A DNA stretch of 64,000 nt from [Lactobacillus] rogosae (lineage in GTDB: Bacteria > Bacillota > Clostridia > Lachnospirales > Lachnospiraceae). The notes under the pieces were generated by a model. It did no database searches, was not told the origin of the DNA, and saw nothing but the letters and a program-made list of their open reading frames with translations. Numbering within the stretch: position 1 is the stretch's first letter; every line of letters starts with the position of its first letter. Of this stretch, positions 1,971 to 7,123 are shown piece after piece. The DNA lies in NCBI GenBank assembly GCA_900112995.1, contig FONU01000018.1, positions 1 through 64,000 on the forward strand, in the 5' to 3' direction. The position numbers and the translations under genes were made by a program.

Positions 1971-2312
1971 GTGTATGCAACAAAGCCTTGAGCAGAAGAA
2001 TACTAGAGAAAATGGTATTGAAAAGGCAGATTTGGAGATAATAATTCCTATTTACTTTTATTTGTAAGATGTATATTTTTTCATAAGATTAGGAGCACTT
2101 GCTAGTGATAGCTATATAGTAGTACAAAAAGAAATGTTATGATTCAATTAATAAAATTATTAGAATTAATACAAGAGTTTGATATAATAAGAAAAAAATT
2201 AATGCGAATTAATTTATTAAGTGGTGAAAGGTATAGATATAAGTGAGTATATAAAAGTAATATAGTATAATAAATTGGTGATAAAAATTATAAATAAATG
2301 AAAGGAATTAAT
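1971..2312 (+). promoter_or_regulatory. AT-rich intergenic region with candidate promoters for the HXS-like operon
   Basis: No gene is visible here. The best promoter candidate is an extended -10 (TGATATAAT, 2180-2188) with a poor -35 (TTAGAA, 2160-2165). A second TATAAT at 2266-2271 sits closer to the first gene. The whole stretch is A/T runs with no clear terminator for the upstream genes. Confidence 0.4.
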
Positions 2313-2663
2313 ATGTTTTTCTCAATTAAGAAAGATATTTATGATAAAAAAGTCTTATTAAAGACCTGTTATAAATTCACAGATGAATATTATATTCACT
2401 TGGATTCTAATAAGGATGAGTTTGTTATTAGTATACAAAAGAAAGATGGGAAGGCAGATACATCCATAGAAGGTGAATTTAAGAATGAACTTATTGAATT
2501 TGCTAATAGAGAGATAGTATTTGAACAAACGAAAAATATTAGAGAACTTCTTTTTGCAAGGTCAATGGCATCTTCAGTTATATATGATGATGAAATACAA
2601 ACAGATATTAATTTGAATGTCGATGATAACAGTTCAATGAGGGATTGGTTTGATAATGAATGA
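2313..2663 (+). CDS. hxsD: HXS system protein HxsD-like
   Basis: This 116-residue cytosolic protein opens the radical-SAM peptide operon. Its N-terminus (KKDIYDKKVLLKTCYKFTD, about residues 6-24) and central block (EFKNELIEFANREIVFEQT, then IRELLFARS) match the pattern I know for HxsD, the small fourth member of the His-Xaa-Ser system. HxsD has no known enzymatic role and probably helps substrate recognition. The start at 2313 is chosen because AAAGGA at 2300-2305 is well spaced, while the ATG at 2298 lacks a ribosome site. The acidic tail after residue 90 seems extra. It overlaps the next gene by 8 bases. Confidence 0.65.
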   Translation: MFFSIKKDIYDKKVLLKTCYKFTDEYYIHLDSNKDEFVISIQKKDGKADTSIEGEFKNELIEFANREIVFEQTKNIRELLFARSMASSVIYDDEIQTDINLNVDDNSSMRDWFDNE

Positions 2664-2868
2664 GTTAAAACTTAGTAAAGAAATATATAATTATGGTCTT
2701 GTTAAAATGGCAGTTAAAGAATTTGCTGGAATATCTAATATTGTTGTTAATATTGAAGAAAATTTTTTAAGATGCGTATTTACAAATTGTATTTATGATG
2801 TCGAAATTACATTGAAAGAATTTGAAAATTATGTCATTGATTTAAATAATCAAAGAGGATTGATATGA
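2656..2868 (+). CDS. Small HxsD-like paralogue, 70 aa
   Basis: This short protein overlaps hxsD and is followed by the peptidase gene, whose start overlaps its stop. Aligned by eye with the HxsD-like protein, it shares the opening K-[DE]-I-Y-[DN] and a Phe at the same distance, then a beta-like segment (NIVVNIEENFLRCVF) and a C-terminal helix (LKEFENYVIDL). I infer a diverged HxsD-type or peptide-recognition domain. The start is uncertain: TTG at 2650 is better spaced from GAGGG at 2639-2643, ATG at 2656 is further away. No known enzyme motif is present. Confidence 0.55.
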   Translation: MNELKLSKEIYNYGLVKMAVKEFAGISNIVVNIEENFLRCVFTNCIYDVEITLKEFENYVIDLNNQRGLI

Positions 2869-3896
2869 CAATGGTAATTAATGTGGTTCTTATAATATTA
2901 TTTTGTTATATTGCATTAATAAGTTATTACAGTGATAAGAAAAATGGGATAATTCCTAATAAAAATCTTTTAGTCATAGGAATAATAGCTGTTATATTGA
3001 AAATTTTAGATTACAAAAATATAGATATAATGATAATACAATTAGTTATAGCATGTATTTGTTCATTATTATTTTATTTATTACATATATGGGCTGGTGG
3101 TGATTCTAAGTTATTTATAGTTGAGGCTATATTGACACCTAATATATTATATGTTCAGGATAGAATGGCGATTTTCCAAGTAATAGTTTTTTCATACTCA
3201 TCGGTATATGTATATTTGATTATAGATAGTATATATGCATATATTCGCAAAAAAGAAACATATAATAAGCTTTCTTTGAAAAATATAAATGTAAAATTCT
3301 TTATTATGAATTGGTTATTAGTATTTTTGGCTTCAGCAGATATTCAAAAGCTGTTATATTATTTATTGAGAAAGTTTTATATTGAAAATTACATAATATT
3401 TGTTTTTGGAAATATGTTTTTTGTATTGATAATGAAAGAAGTTCTTGTAAAAGTAAGCAGACAATTAAGAAATAGTCTATTGATATTGTTATTGGTTTTA
3501 TTTATGGTTCTTTCTCTTATATCTCCAATAAATTTTAAAATTGATTTAAAAAACGTAATTATTGTTTTGGTTATAGTTATTCTTCGTGAATGGGCAGATA
3601 GGTATAGTTATACACCAATTAAGACTTTAGATATAAAAAAAGGAATGATATTATCTGCATCATCAGTAATGTTATTTTTAAACTCAAACATAAAAGGTCT
3701 GCCTATGAAAGTATCAGAAGATATGGCAGCCAGACTGACAGATGAGGAAGTAGATAGTATTAAAAGATGGGCAAGAACAAAGAATGGGAAAGATGAATTA
3801 ATTATAGTAAAGAAAATTCCATTTGCTTTTTTTATAAATATTGGTTATGCAATATTTATGATAATAGGAGGCTATAAGTTGTGGTTAGGTACATAA
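2865..3896 (+). CDS. Prepilin-peptidase-like (A24) membrane aspartyl protease in the HXS-like operon
   Basis: A polytopic membrane protein of 343 residues. The first 100 residues carry the two A24 signatures: D24 in SDKKNGIIPN and D80 in WAGGDSKLF, both next to transmembrane helices, as in type IV prepilin and TadV/FlaK peptidases, which cleave leader peptides at the cytosolic membrane face. More helices follow to about residue 275, then a soluble stretch (MAARLTDEEVDSIKRWAR) and one last helix near 320-340. It is longer than TadV-type enzymes. AAAGAGG precedes the ATG. It sits between the HxsD-like genes and the radical SAM genes, so the downstream repeat protein is its likely substrate. Confidence 0.75.
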   Translation: MTMVINVVLIILFCYIALISYYSDKKNGIIPNKNLLVIGIIAVILKILDYKNIDIMIIQLVIACICSLLFYLLHIWAGGDSKLFIVEAILTPNILYVQDRMAIFQVIVFSYSSVYVYLIIDSIYAYIRKKETYNKLSLKNINVKFFIMNWLLVFLASADIQKLLYYLLRKFYIENYIIFVFGNMFFVLIMKEVLVKVSRQLRNSLLILLLVLFMVLSLISPINFKIDLKNVIIVLVIVILREWADRYSYTPIKTLDIKKGMILSASSVMLFLNSNIKGLPMKVSEDMAARLTDEEVDSIKRWARTKNGKDELIIVKKIPFAFFINIGYAIFMIIGGYKLWLGT

Positions 3897-5002
3897 GTGA
3901 ATATAAAAGCAAGTATAGAATATTTATTTTTTCTACTAAAGAAATTTACACAAAGGAATTACTAAATAAACAAAAAAATGTAGGAGAGTTTATAAATAAT
4001 AAAATTGTATTTTATCCAGATGGAGAGACAGTAAAATTAAGTCCTAAAGAAATAAAAATAATGGATGAATTCTGTGATGGAGATGTTTTAGAAATATCAG
4101 AAACAGGTATAATTTACAGATGGTATTCGGTTATAGAAGGAGATGCAGGTATTGCGACAACTCCAAAATGTAATTCTAATTGCATAATGTGCCCTGCAAG
4201 TGATGGTGAACGAAGTCATAATACAGGATTATCATTAGAACAGCTAGAAACAGTAATCAAACATATGCCAGAAGATTTATGGTATTTTACAATAACAGGA
4301 GGAGAACCAACTTTAATTGGTGAAGATAATTTTATAGAAATATATAGAACAGTAAAAGAACATCTGCCGAATACCAATATATTGCTTTTAACAAATGGTA
4401 GGACGTTGGGAAATTATAGTTTTTTTGAAAAGTTTAAAAAGGAAAATATGAAAAATCTTAGAATAGCTATACCTATTCACGGAAGTATAGCATCAAAATA
4501 TGATTATATAACGCAGGCAAAAGGTGGATTTGAGCAAACAATTAGAGGGTTGACTAATATTATTAATGCTAATATTGAAACAGAAATAAGAATTGTAGTT
4601 AGCAAGCTAAATGAGGATGATATACTTGATATTGCCAAGCTCATTGTTGCAAAATTTAAAAGAGTAAGAGTAGTTCATTTTGTAGGACTTGAAATGCGAG
4701 GTAATTGTGCTGCTAATGCTGATAAAGTGGTTATATCGTATGAGGAGGCTTTTTCAAAGTCAAAGAAAGCAATTCAATTATTAATGATAAATGGGATTGA
4801 TGTTGCTTTATATAATTTTCCTTATTGTATGATTGAGAGAGGATATTGGTCATTAGCGAAGAAAAGTATTTCATCATATAAGGCAGAGTATTATGTTGAA
4901 TGTGATAAATGTAAAATGAAGTCTATGTGTTGTGGGATTTTTACAGCTACAAGAAATTTTTACAAGCCAAGAGTATATCCAATAAAAGGTGATAATGAAT
5001 GA
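3881..5002 (+). CDS. hxsC: Radical SAM maturase, HxsC-like
   Basis: A 373-residue radical SAM enzyme. The 4Fe-4S ligands form CNSNCIMC (C97, C101, C104), followed by the SAM-binding TGGEPT block near residue 139. A C-terminal cysteine group (ECDKCKMKSMCC, about residues 344-355) could hold an extra cluster. The roughly 90-residue N-terminal domain before the radical SAM core and the CNSNC motif fit HxsC, one of the paired enzymes of the His-Xaa-Ser system that modify a repeat peptide. It starts with GTG inside the end of the peptidase gene and overlaps the next gene by 4 bases, so translation is coupled. Confidence 0.75.
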   Translation: MVRYISEYKSKYRIFIFSTKEIYTKELLNKQKNVGEFINNKIVFYPDGETVKLSPKEIKIMDEFCDGDVLEISETGIIYRWYSVIEGDAGIATTPKCNSNCIMCPASDGERSHNTGLSLEQLETVIKHMPEDLWYFTITGGEPTLIGEDNFIEIYRTVKEHLPNTNILLLTNGRTLGNYSFFEKFKKENMKNLRIAIPIHGSIASKYDYITQAKGGFEQTIRGLTNIINANIETEIRIVVSKLNEDDILDIAKLIVAKFKRVRVVHFVGLEMRGNCAANADKVVISYEEAFSKSKKAIQLLMINGIDVALYNFPYCMIERGYWSLAKKSISSYKAEYYVECDKCKMKSMCCGIFTATRNFYKPRVYPIKGDNE

Positions 5003-6402
5003 TAGGTTATTTTAATGCTAAAAAACAGAGTGAGGATGAATATTTACTTACAAATGATATGGGATTTTATAAGTATGTAAATTCAGAAACATATGATAAA
5101 TTATGCAATAATAAAATCGACAAAGAAGATGAAGATTATGAGGATTTGATTGAAAAAGGGTTTATTATTAATATATCAATAGAAGAATATATAAAAAAAT
5201 ATTCTGGATTTATAAGAAGTATGAAATCATATTGTATGGGAGGTACTTCTTTACATATATTTGCAGTTACCAATATGTGCAATCTTGACTGTATTTATTG
5301 TCAGGCACATAGTAGAAATTCACATTTGAATGGTAAAATGACAGAGGAAATAGGAAAGCGTGCAATTGATATTGCGATGAATTCCAAGAATGATAACCTG
5401 ACATTTGAATTTCAAGGTGGCGAGCCGTTGTTAAACTTCAATGTTATAAAAAGTATGATTGAGTATTCAAAGGAAAAAAATAAAATTTTAAATAAACATA
5501 TTGAATACACAATAGTAACAAATTTGACGTGTCTGAATGATGATATATTACATTTTTTGTTAGATAATAATGTTAGTATATGTACTTCATTAGATGGAAC
5601 AAGAGAAATTCATAATTATAATAGACCATACAAATTATCAAAAATAGGTAGTTTTGATGATGTTATTGATAAAATAGCATATTTAAAAAGTAAAGGTGTA
5701 AATGTTGGGGCTATTCAAACAACTTCTAAAAAAAGTATTCAAAATCCTAAAGAGATAATAGATATGTATTTAAAGATTGGCATAAACCATATTTTTTTAA
5801 GACCATTAACTCCATTAGGTATGGCTGATGATTCGTGGAAGAAGGTTGGATATACAGTAGAAGAATATATAAATTTTTATAAAGAAGCATTTCAGTATAT
5901 AATGGAACTTAATAAAAATGGTACATTTTTTGTTGAAACGCATGCGGCATATTTTTTGTGTAAGATACTTGAAAATTATTCTCAAAATTATATGGAATTA
6001 CGTTCGCCTTGTGGCGCTACATTAGGACAAATGAGTTATTATTATGATGGCAATATATTTACCTGTGATGAAGGAAGAATGTTATATGAAATGGGAGATA
6101 GTTCTTTCTTGCTAGGAAATGTATATAATGATTCATATATGGATATGATTGGTTCCGATATATGTAAAACATTATGTAAGTCCTCTATAATAGAAAGTCT
6201 TCCAAAATGTAATAATTGTGTATATCAGCCATACTGTGGAACTTGTCCTGTTGTTAATTATGCCAGCGATAAGGATTTGTTTTCTAAAAATCCAAAGGAT
6301 TTTAGATGTAAAAGTTACTCAGCAATTATGGATTTATTATTTGAAATAATACATAGAAATGACAAACAGGAAATGGATATATTATATTCGTGGATAAGAT
6401 GA
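4999..6402 (+). CDS. hxsB: Radical SAM maturase with SPASM-like C-terminus, HxsB-like
   Basis: A 467-residue radical SAM protein. An N-terminal domain of about 80 residues precedes LHIFAVTNMCNLDCIYCQ (C94, C98, C101) and the EFQGGEPLLNF block near residue 138, both very like HxsB. The C-terminal third carries many cysteines (CGATLGQ, FTCDEGR, CNNCVYQPYCGTC, FRCKSY), the SPASM-type arrangement for auxiliary iron-sulfur clusters. Such enzymes make crosslinks or other changes on ribosomal peptides; the chemistry here is unknown. ATG overlaps the end of hxsC, and the substrate gene begins 11 bases after the stop. Confidence 0.75.
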   Translation: MIGYFNAKKQSEDEYLLTNDMGFYKYVNSETYDKLCNNKIDKEDEDYEDLIEKGFIINISIEEYIKKYSGFIRSMKSYCMGGTSLHIFAVTNMCNLDCIYCQAHSRNSHLNGKMTEEIGKRAIDIAMNSKNDNLTFEFQGGEPLLNFNVIKSMIEYSKEKNKILNKHIEYTIVTNLTCLNDDILHFLLDNNVSICTSLDGTREIHNYNRPYKLSKIGSFDDVIDKIAYLKSKGVNVGAIQTTSKKSIQNPKEIIDMYLKIGINHIFLRPLTPLGMADDSWKKVGYTVEEYINFYKEAFQYIMELNKNGTFFVETHAAYFLCKILENYSQNYMELRSPCGATLGQMSYYYDGNIFTCDEGRMLYEMGDSSFLLGNVYNDSYMDMIGSDICKTLCKSSIIESLPKCNNCVYQPYCGTCPVVNYASDKDLFSKNPKDFRCKSYSAIMDLLFEIIHRNDKQEMDILYSWIR

Positions 6403-6412
6403 GGTGATATGG

Positions 6413-7123
6413 ATGGAAGAGAAAAAGTTTCCTAAAATAAGTAAATCTATTCAAGATTTTTTTGAGGATGAAGATGGAAGTATAACAAGAAATAAAGCAT
6501 TGTTAATGGGTGGAATGATATTAGTGTTAGGGATGCTTTTTAGTGATGAGGTGTATGCTGCACATAGAACTCATTCAACGCATAGGACACATTCGACCCA
6601 TAGGACTTCTAATAATGCGCATGGAAGTCATTCAACACACGCAACTCATAGCAATACACATTCAAATCATGCAACTCATTCAACACATGATTCACATAGC
6701 TCCCATAGTACACATTCAAATCACGCAACACATTCGACAAGTACTGTAGCACCAACAACACAGTCAGCACCAACAGAATCAGCAACAGCAGCACCAACAA
6801 CTCAGTCAGCAACGATAGAACCAACAACAGCAGCACCAACAACACAGTCAGCAACGATAGAACCAACAACAGCAGCACCAACAACTCAGTCAGCAACGAT
6901 AGAATCTACAACTATAGCACCAACAACGCAAGCGGTAACAATTGAATCAACAACATCAGCAATGACGGAAGAGGCGGCAATAGATGCTGGAACTTTAAAT
7001 TCTGCATGTAATGATGTAATAAATACGTTAGTAGGCGGTGGAACATTGGCAGCAGTTGGAGGAGTTTTAGCACACAAAATAAAAAAGAATAAAGATAAAA
7101 ATAAGGATGATAATAAAAAATAG
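6413..7123 (+). CDS. hxsA: His-Xaa-Ser/Thr repeat protein, HxsA-like modification substrate
   Basis: A 236-residue protein in clear modules. Residues 1-22 form a charged leader ending FFEDEDG. Residues 29-43 are a hydrophobic helix, and VYA-A at 47-50 is a good signal peptidase I site. Residues 51-107 hold 18 histidines, nearly all as H-x-S/T triplets. Residues 113-182 are five 14-residue Thr-rich repeats, and residues 203-221 are a Gly-rich weak membrane segment before a Lys-rich tail. GAGGTG at 6401-6406 supports ATG 6413 rather than the GTG inside it. It is the likely target of the two radical SAM enzymes. DEDGS before the helix resembles Flp pilin leaders, matching the A24 peptidase in the operon. 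Confidence 0.75.
   Translation: MEEKKFPKISKSIQDFFEDEDGSITRNKALLMGGMILVLGMLFSDEVYAAHRTHSTHRTHSTHRTSNNAHGSHSTHATHSNTHSNHATHSTHDSHSSHSTHSNHATHSTSTVAPTTQSAPTESATAAPTTQSATIEPTTAAPTTQSATIEPTTAAPTTQSATIESTTIAPTTQAVTIESTTSAMTEEAAIDAGTLNSACNDVINTLVGGGTLAAVGGVLAHKIKKNKDKNKDDNKK
6563..6733 (+). repeat. Codon-level His-x-Ser/Thr triplet repeat
   Basis: A 171-base stretch of CAT/CAC codons every third codon encodes HRT, HST, HAT, HGS, HDS and similar triplets. Two phase breaks occur, at SNNAH and NTH. Synonymous differences between units show that the repeat has been kept at protein level rather than being a very recent DNA expansion. Confidence 0.9.
6749..6958 (+). repeat. Five tandem 42-bp units in the repeat-protein gene
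   Basis: Five in-frame 42-base units encode the consensus APTTQSATIEPTTA. The three central units are almost identical at DNA level, which points to recent duplication; the first and last have drifted. The low-complexity Thr/Pro segment looks like a stalk or linker between the His repeat and the C-terminal membrane segment. Confidence 0.9.

Follow-up and report, generated by a model that had tools for sequence, protein, structure and literature searches.

How is a His-Xaa-Ser repeat protein matured when its leader resembles the substrates of two different peptidases? The question arises from HxsA3, the product of the last gene in an operon of [Lactobacillus] rogosae (Lachnospiraceae). The operon lies in the first 64,000 nt of contig FONU01000018.1; "the window" refers here to that whole stretch of DNA. 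The genes overlap or abut, with HxsD followed by the genes for an HxsD-like protein, an A24 peptidase, HxsC, HxsB, and finally HxsA3:

2298..2663, + strand: HxsD (TIGR03976, 85 bits; cut-off, 50)
2650..2868, + strand: HxsD-like protein (NF038315, 57.7 bits; cut-off, 41)
2865..3896, + strand: A24 (prepilin-type, GxGD) peptidase with a C-terminal extension and catalytic D24 and D80 (from PF01478, alignment, and fold)
3881..5002, + strand: HxsC radical SAM maturase (TIGR03977, 284 bits; cut-off, 267.9)
4999..6402, + strand: HxsB radical SAM maturase (TIGR03978, 511 bits; cut-off, 370)
6413..7123, + strand: HxsA3, His-Xaa-Ser repeat protein, 236 aa from the ATG at 6413 (NCBIfam NF038309, 109 bits; cut-off, 65)

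HxsB, HxsC, and HxsD are adjacent and each scores above its cut-off, which places the operon in the His-Xaa-Ser system.

Two candidate cleavage sites flanking one helix

The ATG of HxsA3 has a Shine-Dalgarno-like AGGTGA just 5' of it, and the NF038309 match, spanning residues 8-86 of the GTG-start frame, covers the leader and the first part of the repeat. Translated from the ATG at 6413, the protein begins MEEKKFPKISKSIQDFFEDEDG-SITRNK-ALLMGGMILVLGMLF-SDEVYA-AHRTHST, and the residues after SDEVYA read on as AHRTHSTHRTHS. Its parts are as follows:

6413..6478, + strand: hydrophilic, net acidic leader, residues 1-22, ending DFFEDEDG; the G22 codon (6476-6478) marks the proposed A24 cut
6479..6541, + strand: basic collar SITRNK (with K28) and the 15-residue hydrophobic helix ALLMGGMILVLGMLF; K28 and G33 are invariant in 18 homologues
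6542..6559, + strand: c-region SDEVYA, containing the (-3,-1) site; signal peptidase I is proposed to cut after A49 (6557-6559)
6563..6739, + strand: His-rich repeat, the presumed HxsB/HxsC substrate, read from sequence; the family model covers its first part
7016..7120, + strand: C-terminal hydrophobic stretch VINTLVGGGTLAAVGGVLA and Lys-rich tail, residues 202-236, a possible second anchor

The likeness of the leader to those of Flp pilins was judged against published rules. Residues 1-22 carry a net charge of -3, and the helix has a mean Kyte-Doolittle value of 2.45. A hydrophilic leader of 22 residues that ends in Gly and is followed directly by a hydrophobic stretch is what the rule for class III signal peptides describes. 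Flp pilins carry Glu+5 and Tyr+6 (PMC3244431); in HxsA3 the +1 to +6 residues after G22 are S-I-T-R-N-K, with N27 and K28 at those two positions, so the initial annotation of this DNA was right that the pilin Glu at position 5 is missing. At the other end of the helix, small residues at -3 and -1 past the h-region fit the sequence rule for Sec signal peptides in all 18 homologues. The signal peptidase I site that had been suggested at VYA (V47-Y48-A49, 6551-6559) is thus present and conserved, but the expected cut lies after A49 rather than between A50 and H51 (H51, 6563-6565), because the (-3,-1) rule reads V47-x-A49, giving A50-H51 as the new start.

Beyond the repeat, the linker (6740-7000) is a Thr/Pro-rich tandem repeat (APTTQSATIEPTTA) that differs from the linkers of homologues. 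The C-terminal stretch, with a 19-residue hydropathy of 1.64, is present in the window protein alone among the 18. The tail has no LPXTG motif, and Gram_pos_anchor scores 16.8 bits, below its cut-off of 20.

The A24 peptidase of the operon

The A24 gene encodes a membrane protein of 343 residues. PF01478 scores 29.6 bits in a search of the organism's own genome (cut-off, 26.5) but 20.1 bits, under the cut-off, in hmmscan; relatives in other loci score 30.8 (L016), 32.8 (L024), and 33.5 bits (L028). An alignment of 21 cassette A24 proteins retains only seven invariant columns, D24, G79, and D80 among them. D24 and D80 are the catalytic Asp pair and G79 is the Gly of GxGD, and both Asp residues are also found in the proteins from Elusimicrobium and from the archaeon bin779. 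An AlphaFold model of the window enzyme (pLDDT, 87.6) aligns in VIA-align with FlaK (3S0X) at Z 10.6 over 193 residues and 4.4 A, with the next row at Z 5.4, and the sequence profile also matches the same FlaK chain (E 0.0058). Foldseek comparison of the model with the PDB gave matches at chance level, none at E <= 0.001.

The cassette A24 proteins have a common C-terminal extension, KKGMILS...SRLT..E..SIKRW...IVRKIPFA, which the model folds into a small mixed domain ahead of the final helix. Its likeness to PF06847, the C-terminal domain of archaeal A24 enzymes, is slight (11.4 bits, one relative).

No match to the filament ATPase family PF00437 was found on the window's contig, and no product of the window cassette apart from HxsA3 has a prepilin-like N-terminus. 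The organism's other A24 genes lie on two further contigs (C4 and C15), both of which also carry filament-type ATPase genes. A protein adjoining the A24 gene on contig C15 (L130, 5162-6514) starts SEENG-VVTVEATISL, with Glu+5 present; the same genome thus keeps canonical-looking A24 substrates elsewhere.

Conservation of the leader from bacteria to archaea

A scan of genome contigs for HxsB, together with family searches, yielded at least 17 further bacterial HxsA3 proteins, all of which were aligned with the window protein. They come from Lachnospiraceae, other Clostridia, Eggerthellaceae, and one more class of the phylum. All 18 sequences share P7, E20, G22, K28, G33, and the first histidines without exception. 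The outer site is equally constant: every sequence has V or A at -3 and A or G at -1, with Gly at -1 in four (VFG-A). Counted from the Gly, the (-3,-1) site comes 27 residues later in 18 of 18, despite leader lengths of 20 to 27. Net charge from residue 1 to the Gly ranges from 0 to -7, whereas the next six residues carry +1 or +2. A (-3,-1) site is expected at one given position with a chance of about 0.15 per sequence from local composition, a value that cannot simply be multiplied across related sequences; on this alignment, the two-site leader is not a chance pattern. An A24 gene is present in all 18 bacterial HxsA3 loci. In two relatives (L010, 7965-11054; L011, 8082-11182), genes for two membrane proteins flank HxsA3 in the cassette, a MORN-repeat-like one before it and one of ~370 aa, perhaps XpaC-like, after it; neither was seen in the window.

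Are these features confined to the close relatives? An acidic stretch ending in Gly is retained in an archaeal protein (L027), in Elusimicrobium, in Omnitrophota, and in bin779, each with an A24-type gene at or near the system. The archaeal L027 leader reads LTKEDG-KI, with a spacing of 27 and an A24 gene close by. Elusimicrobium HxsA has LNSEEG-KI and the same spacing, and its A24 gene adjoins HxsB in the extended locus (E 3e-27, both Asp residues). The two Omnitrophota proteins differ: one (DETG-FV) has a spacing of 27, and the other (DDAG-FV) shows no clear (-3,-1) site where one would be expected; an A24 gene is close to the system in the Omnitrophota genome L031. HxsA of bin779 begins IEEKG-SI, with a spacing of 28. 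Neither HxsA nor A24 lies beside HxsB in bin779; a distant A24 gene, with AxAD in place of GxGD, directly precedes the HxsA gene. Thus, in two genomes (Elusimicrobium and bin779), a missing partner turned up on a directed look.

These deep leaders mostly score under the cut-offs of the HxsA3 and HxsA4 models, with Elusimicrobium exceeding that of HxsA4. Absences in the A24 profile search of genomes carry little weight, because the Elusimicrobium gene escaped that search and was revealed by translating the extended locus. Three loci were left uncounted: L026 and L030, which are HxsB-like with neither HxsA nor A24 nearby, and L028, which has an A24 gene and no HxsA on a short contig. In genome G1183 (L144), no recognizable HxsA was found beside an A24-like match, and HxsB relatives were sought on viral contigs and none was found there.

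Two of the deep loci have further features of their own. In HxsA of bin779 (L149, 7842-8528), the His repeat is followed by a domain of the Hint/intein type (PT-HINT, 61.8 bits; the N- and C-terminal splicing regions of inteins also match), an arrangement suggestive of self-processing beyond the repeat. In Elusimicrobium, the HxsA gene is part of a row of at least six radical-SAM-like genes (L025/L147), and HxsB-like copies recur on its contig.

Ten plasmid-borne HxsB cassettes from Pseudomonadota, Cyanobacteriota, and Bacteroidota provide a contrast. None has an A24 gene, and the nine HxsA/HxsA2 proteins seen in them begin with an ordinary Sec signal peptide, lack the acidic-Gly motif, and place tens of spacer residues ahead of the repeat. 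However, A24 presence maps to a single change on the HxsB tree, so the contrast is not independent evidence and could be explained by common descent; it is consistency rather than repeated co-evolution.

Proposed maturation and relation to known systems

We consider it fairly probable that HxsA3 serves as substrate to a His-Xaa-Ser radical SAM system and undergoes two proteolytic maturation steps, one at each end of a single membrane helix. Cleavage by the A24 peptidase after G22 is very likely, cleavage by signal peptidase I after A49 is likely, and use of both cuts on the same protein is somewhat favored. HxsB and HxsC, with the HxsD proteins, would modify the His repeat in the cytoplasm, as their families imply. 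The helix would then enter the membrane so that the acidic leader faces the cytoplasm, where the operon's A24 peptidase would remove residues 1-22 after G22, as with a prepilin leader; conservation, co-occurrence, catalytic residues, and fold all point to this step. What would remain, SITRNK followed by the hydrophobic core and SDEVYA, is arranged n-h-c like an ordinary Sec signal peptide. A cut by signal peptidase I after A49 on the outer face could follow, as the invariant (-3,-1) site at fixed spacing suggests, leaving a repeat domain that starts at A50-H51. In the window protein, the released domain may stay attached via its C-terminal hydrophobic tail. The inner cut may license export by making an ordinary signal peptide out of a precursor with an acidic head. 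It is conceivable that the acidic head before the Gly slows export for as long as it is present, in which case modification would come first and export second.

The fixed spacing of 27 residues fits one membrane crossing between two cuts, although an uncleaved helix would keep that spacing too. The A24 peptidase alone might instead cut HxsA3, which its helix would then anchor in the membrane as happens in a mature pilin; the repeat would lie outside, and VYA would stay unprocessed. The A24 gene and the Gly are conserved from bacteria to archaea, and the one Omnitrophota protein that lacks a clear outer site would fit such a product; the conserved VFA could then mark the end of a helix that serves as an anchor and is never cut. 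This reading is nonetheless unlikely, given the (-3,-1) pattern at fixed spacing in all 18 homologues, the ordinary secretory signal peptides of HxsA proteins from cassettes that lack A24, and the missing pilin assembly features (no Glu+5 and no ATPase nearby). Less likely still is that signal peptidase I acts alone, with the acidic-Gly segment guiding recognition by the radical SAM enzymes or HxsD while the A24 enzyme acts on something else. Leader recognition is common in radical SAM peptide systems, and the motif lies outside the core repeat; it could be a maturase docking site instead of a scissile site. Yet HxsB/C/D systems that lack A24 manage without the motif, HxsA3 is the one prepilin-like product of the window cassette on which the peptidase could act, and in bin779 the A24 gene sits directly before HxsA, away from HxsB.

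The DEDG followed by a helix, along with the A24 gene, could also be taken to mean that HxsA3 is a true Flp or type IV pilin-like subunit that polymerizes. We regard this as very improbable, and membership in the Flp pilins, whose leaders the initial annotation had likened to this one, was rejected: Glu+5 and Tyr+6 are absent (K28 is invariant in 18), there is no Pfam Flp match, and the filament ATPases are on other contigs. A review of pilins describes the Gly as critical and Glu5 as always dispensable for processing, with leaders of 6-26 residues (PMC4471445); hence, the missing Glu+5 speaks against pilus assembly and not against cutting.

Returning to two-step maturation, the idea of two signals has held up, since homologues conserve both G22 and the (-3,-1) site (18 of 18 each) and the operon includes an A24 gene. 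That gene is the strongest evidence for the idea and was absent from the initial annotation. What probably needs to be abandoned is the choice between the cuts, as the sites flank the helix, one at either end and a fixed distance apart, and both could be used in turn. Nor would the choice alone settle whether the product is membrane-held or free, because the C-terminal hydrophobic stretch and Lys-rich tail might anchor it anyway.

What are the implications? A broader proposal, which we hold tentatively and at slightly less than even confidence, is that bacteria and archaea alike have put a prepilin-type peptidase to use as the dedicated leader peptidase for a His-repeat protein modified by radical SAM enzymes, with no filament machinery involved, and that together with signal peptidase I this peptidase excises one helix from both membrane faces. 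If the A24 enzyme is the leader peptidase, the product of the His-Xaa-Ser system, which appears uncharacterized, would gain a defined export and maturation route with a testable order of events. An aspartic intramembrane-boundary protease would join peptide maturation, an unusual use of a pilus enzyme. For genome annotation, an A24 gene and a Gly-ended leader need not imply a pilus.

The cassette and HxsA3 are already named families; a dedicated A24 leader peptidase and a two-site leader were not found described. In the literature searched, mostly open access and so a weak negative, no paper was found that deals with how HxsA is matured or that links A24 peptidases to radical SAM maturases or peptide systems, and prepilin-type enzymes go unmentioned in a 2023 review of leader-removing proteases. 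The closest known system is the HxsA3 branch of the His-Xaa-Ser radical SAM system (NF038309, TIGR03976, TIGR03977, and TIGR03978), with which the window shares all components, above curated cut-offs. The classical HxsA/HxsA2 systems that were sampled, unlike the window, have neither an A24 peptidase nor a two-site leader. With the Flp pilins (Tad, type IVc), HxsA3 shares a leader of ~20-26 residues with a DEDG-like end followed by a helix, but it lacks Glu+5 and Tyr+6 and has a His repeat and an external (-3,-1) site. The window enzyme shares with A24 prepilin peptidases of the FlaK/TadV type (PF01478) the Asp pair, GxGD, a FlaK-like fold, and a substrate with an acidic, Gly-ended leader before a helix; it differs in its C-terminal extension around GMIL..PFA, in having no filament genes with it, and in a substrate without Glu+5.
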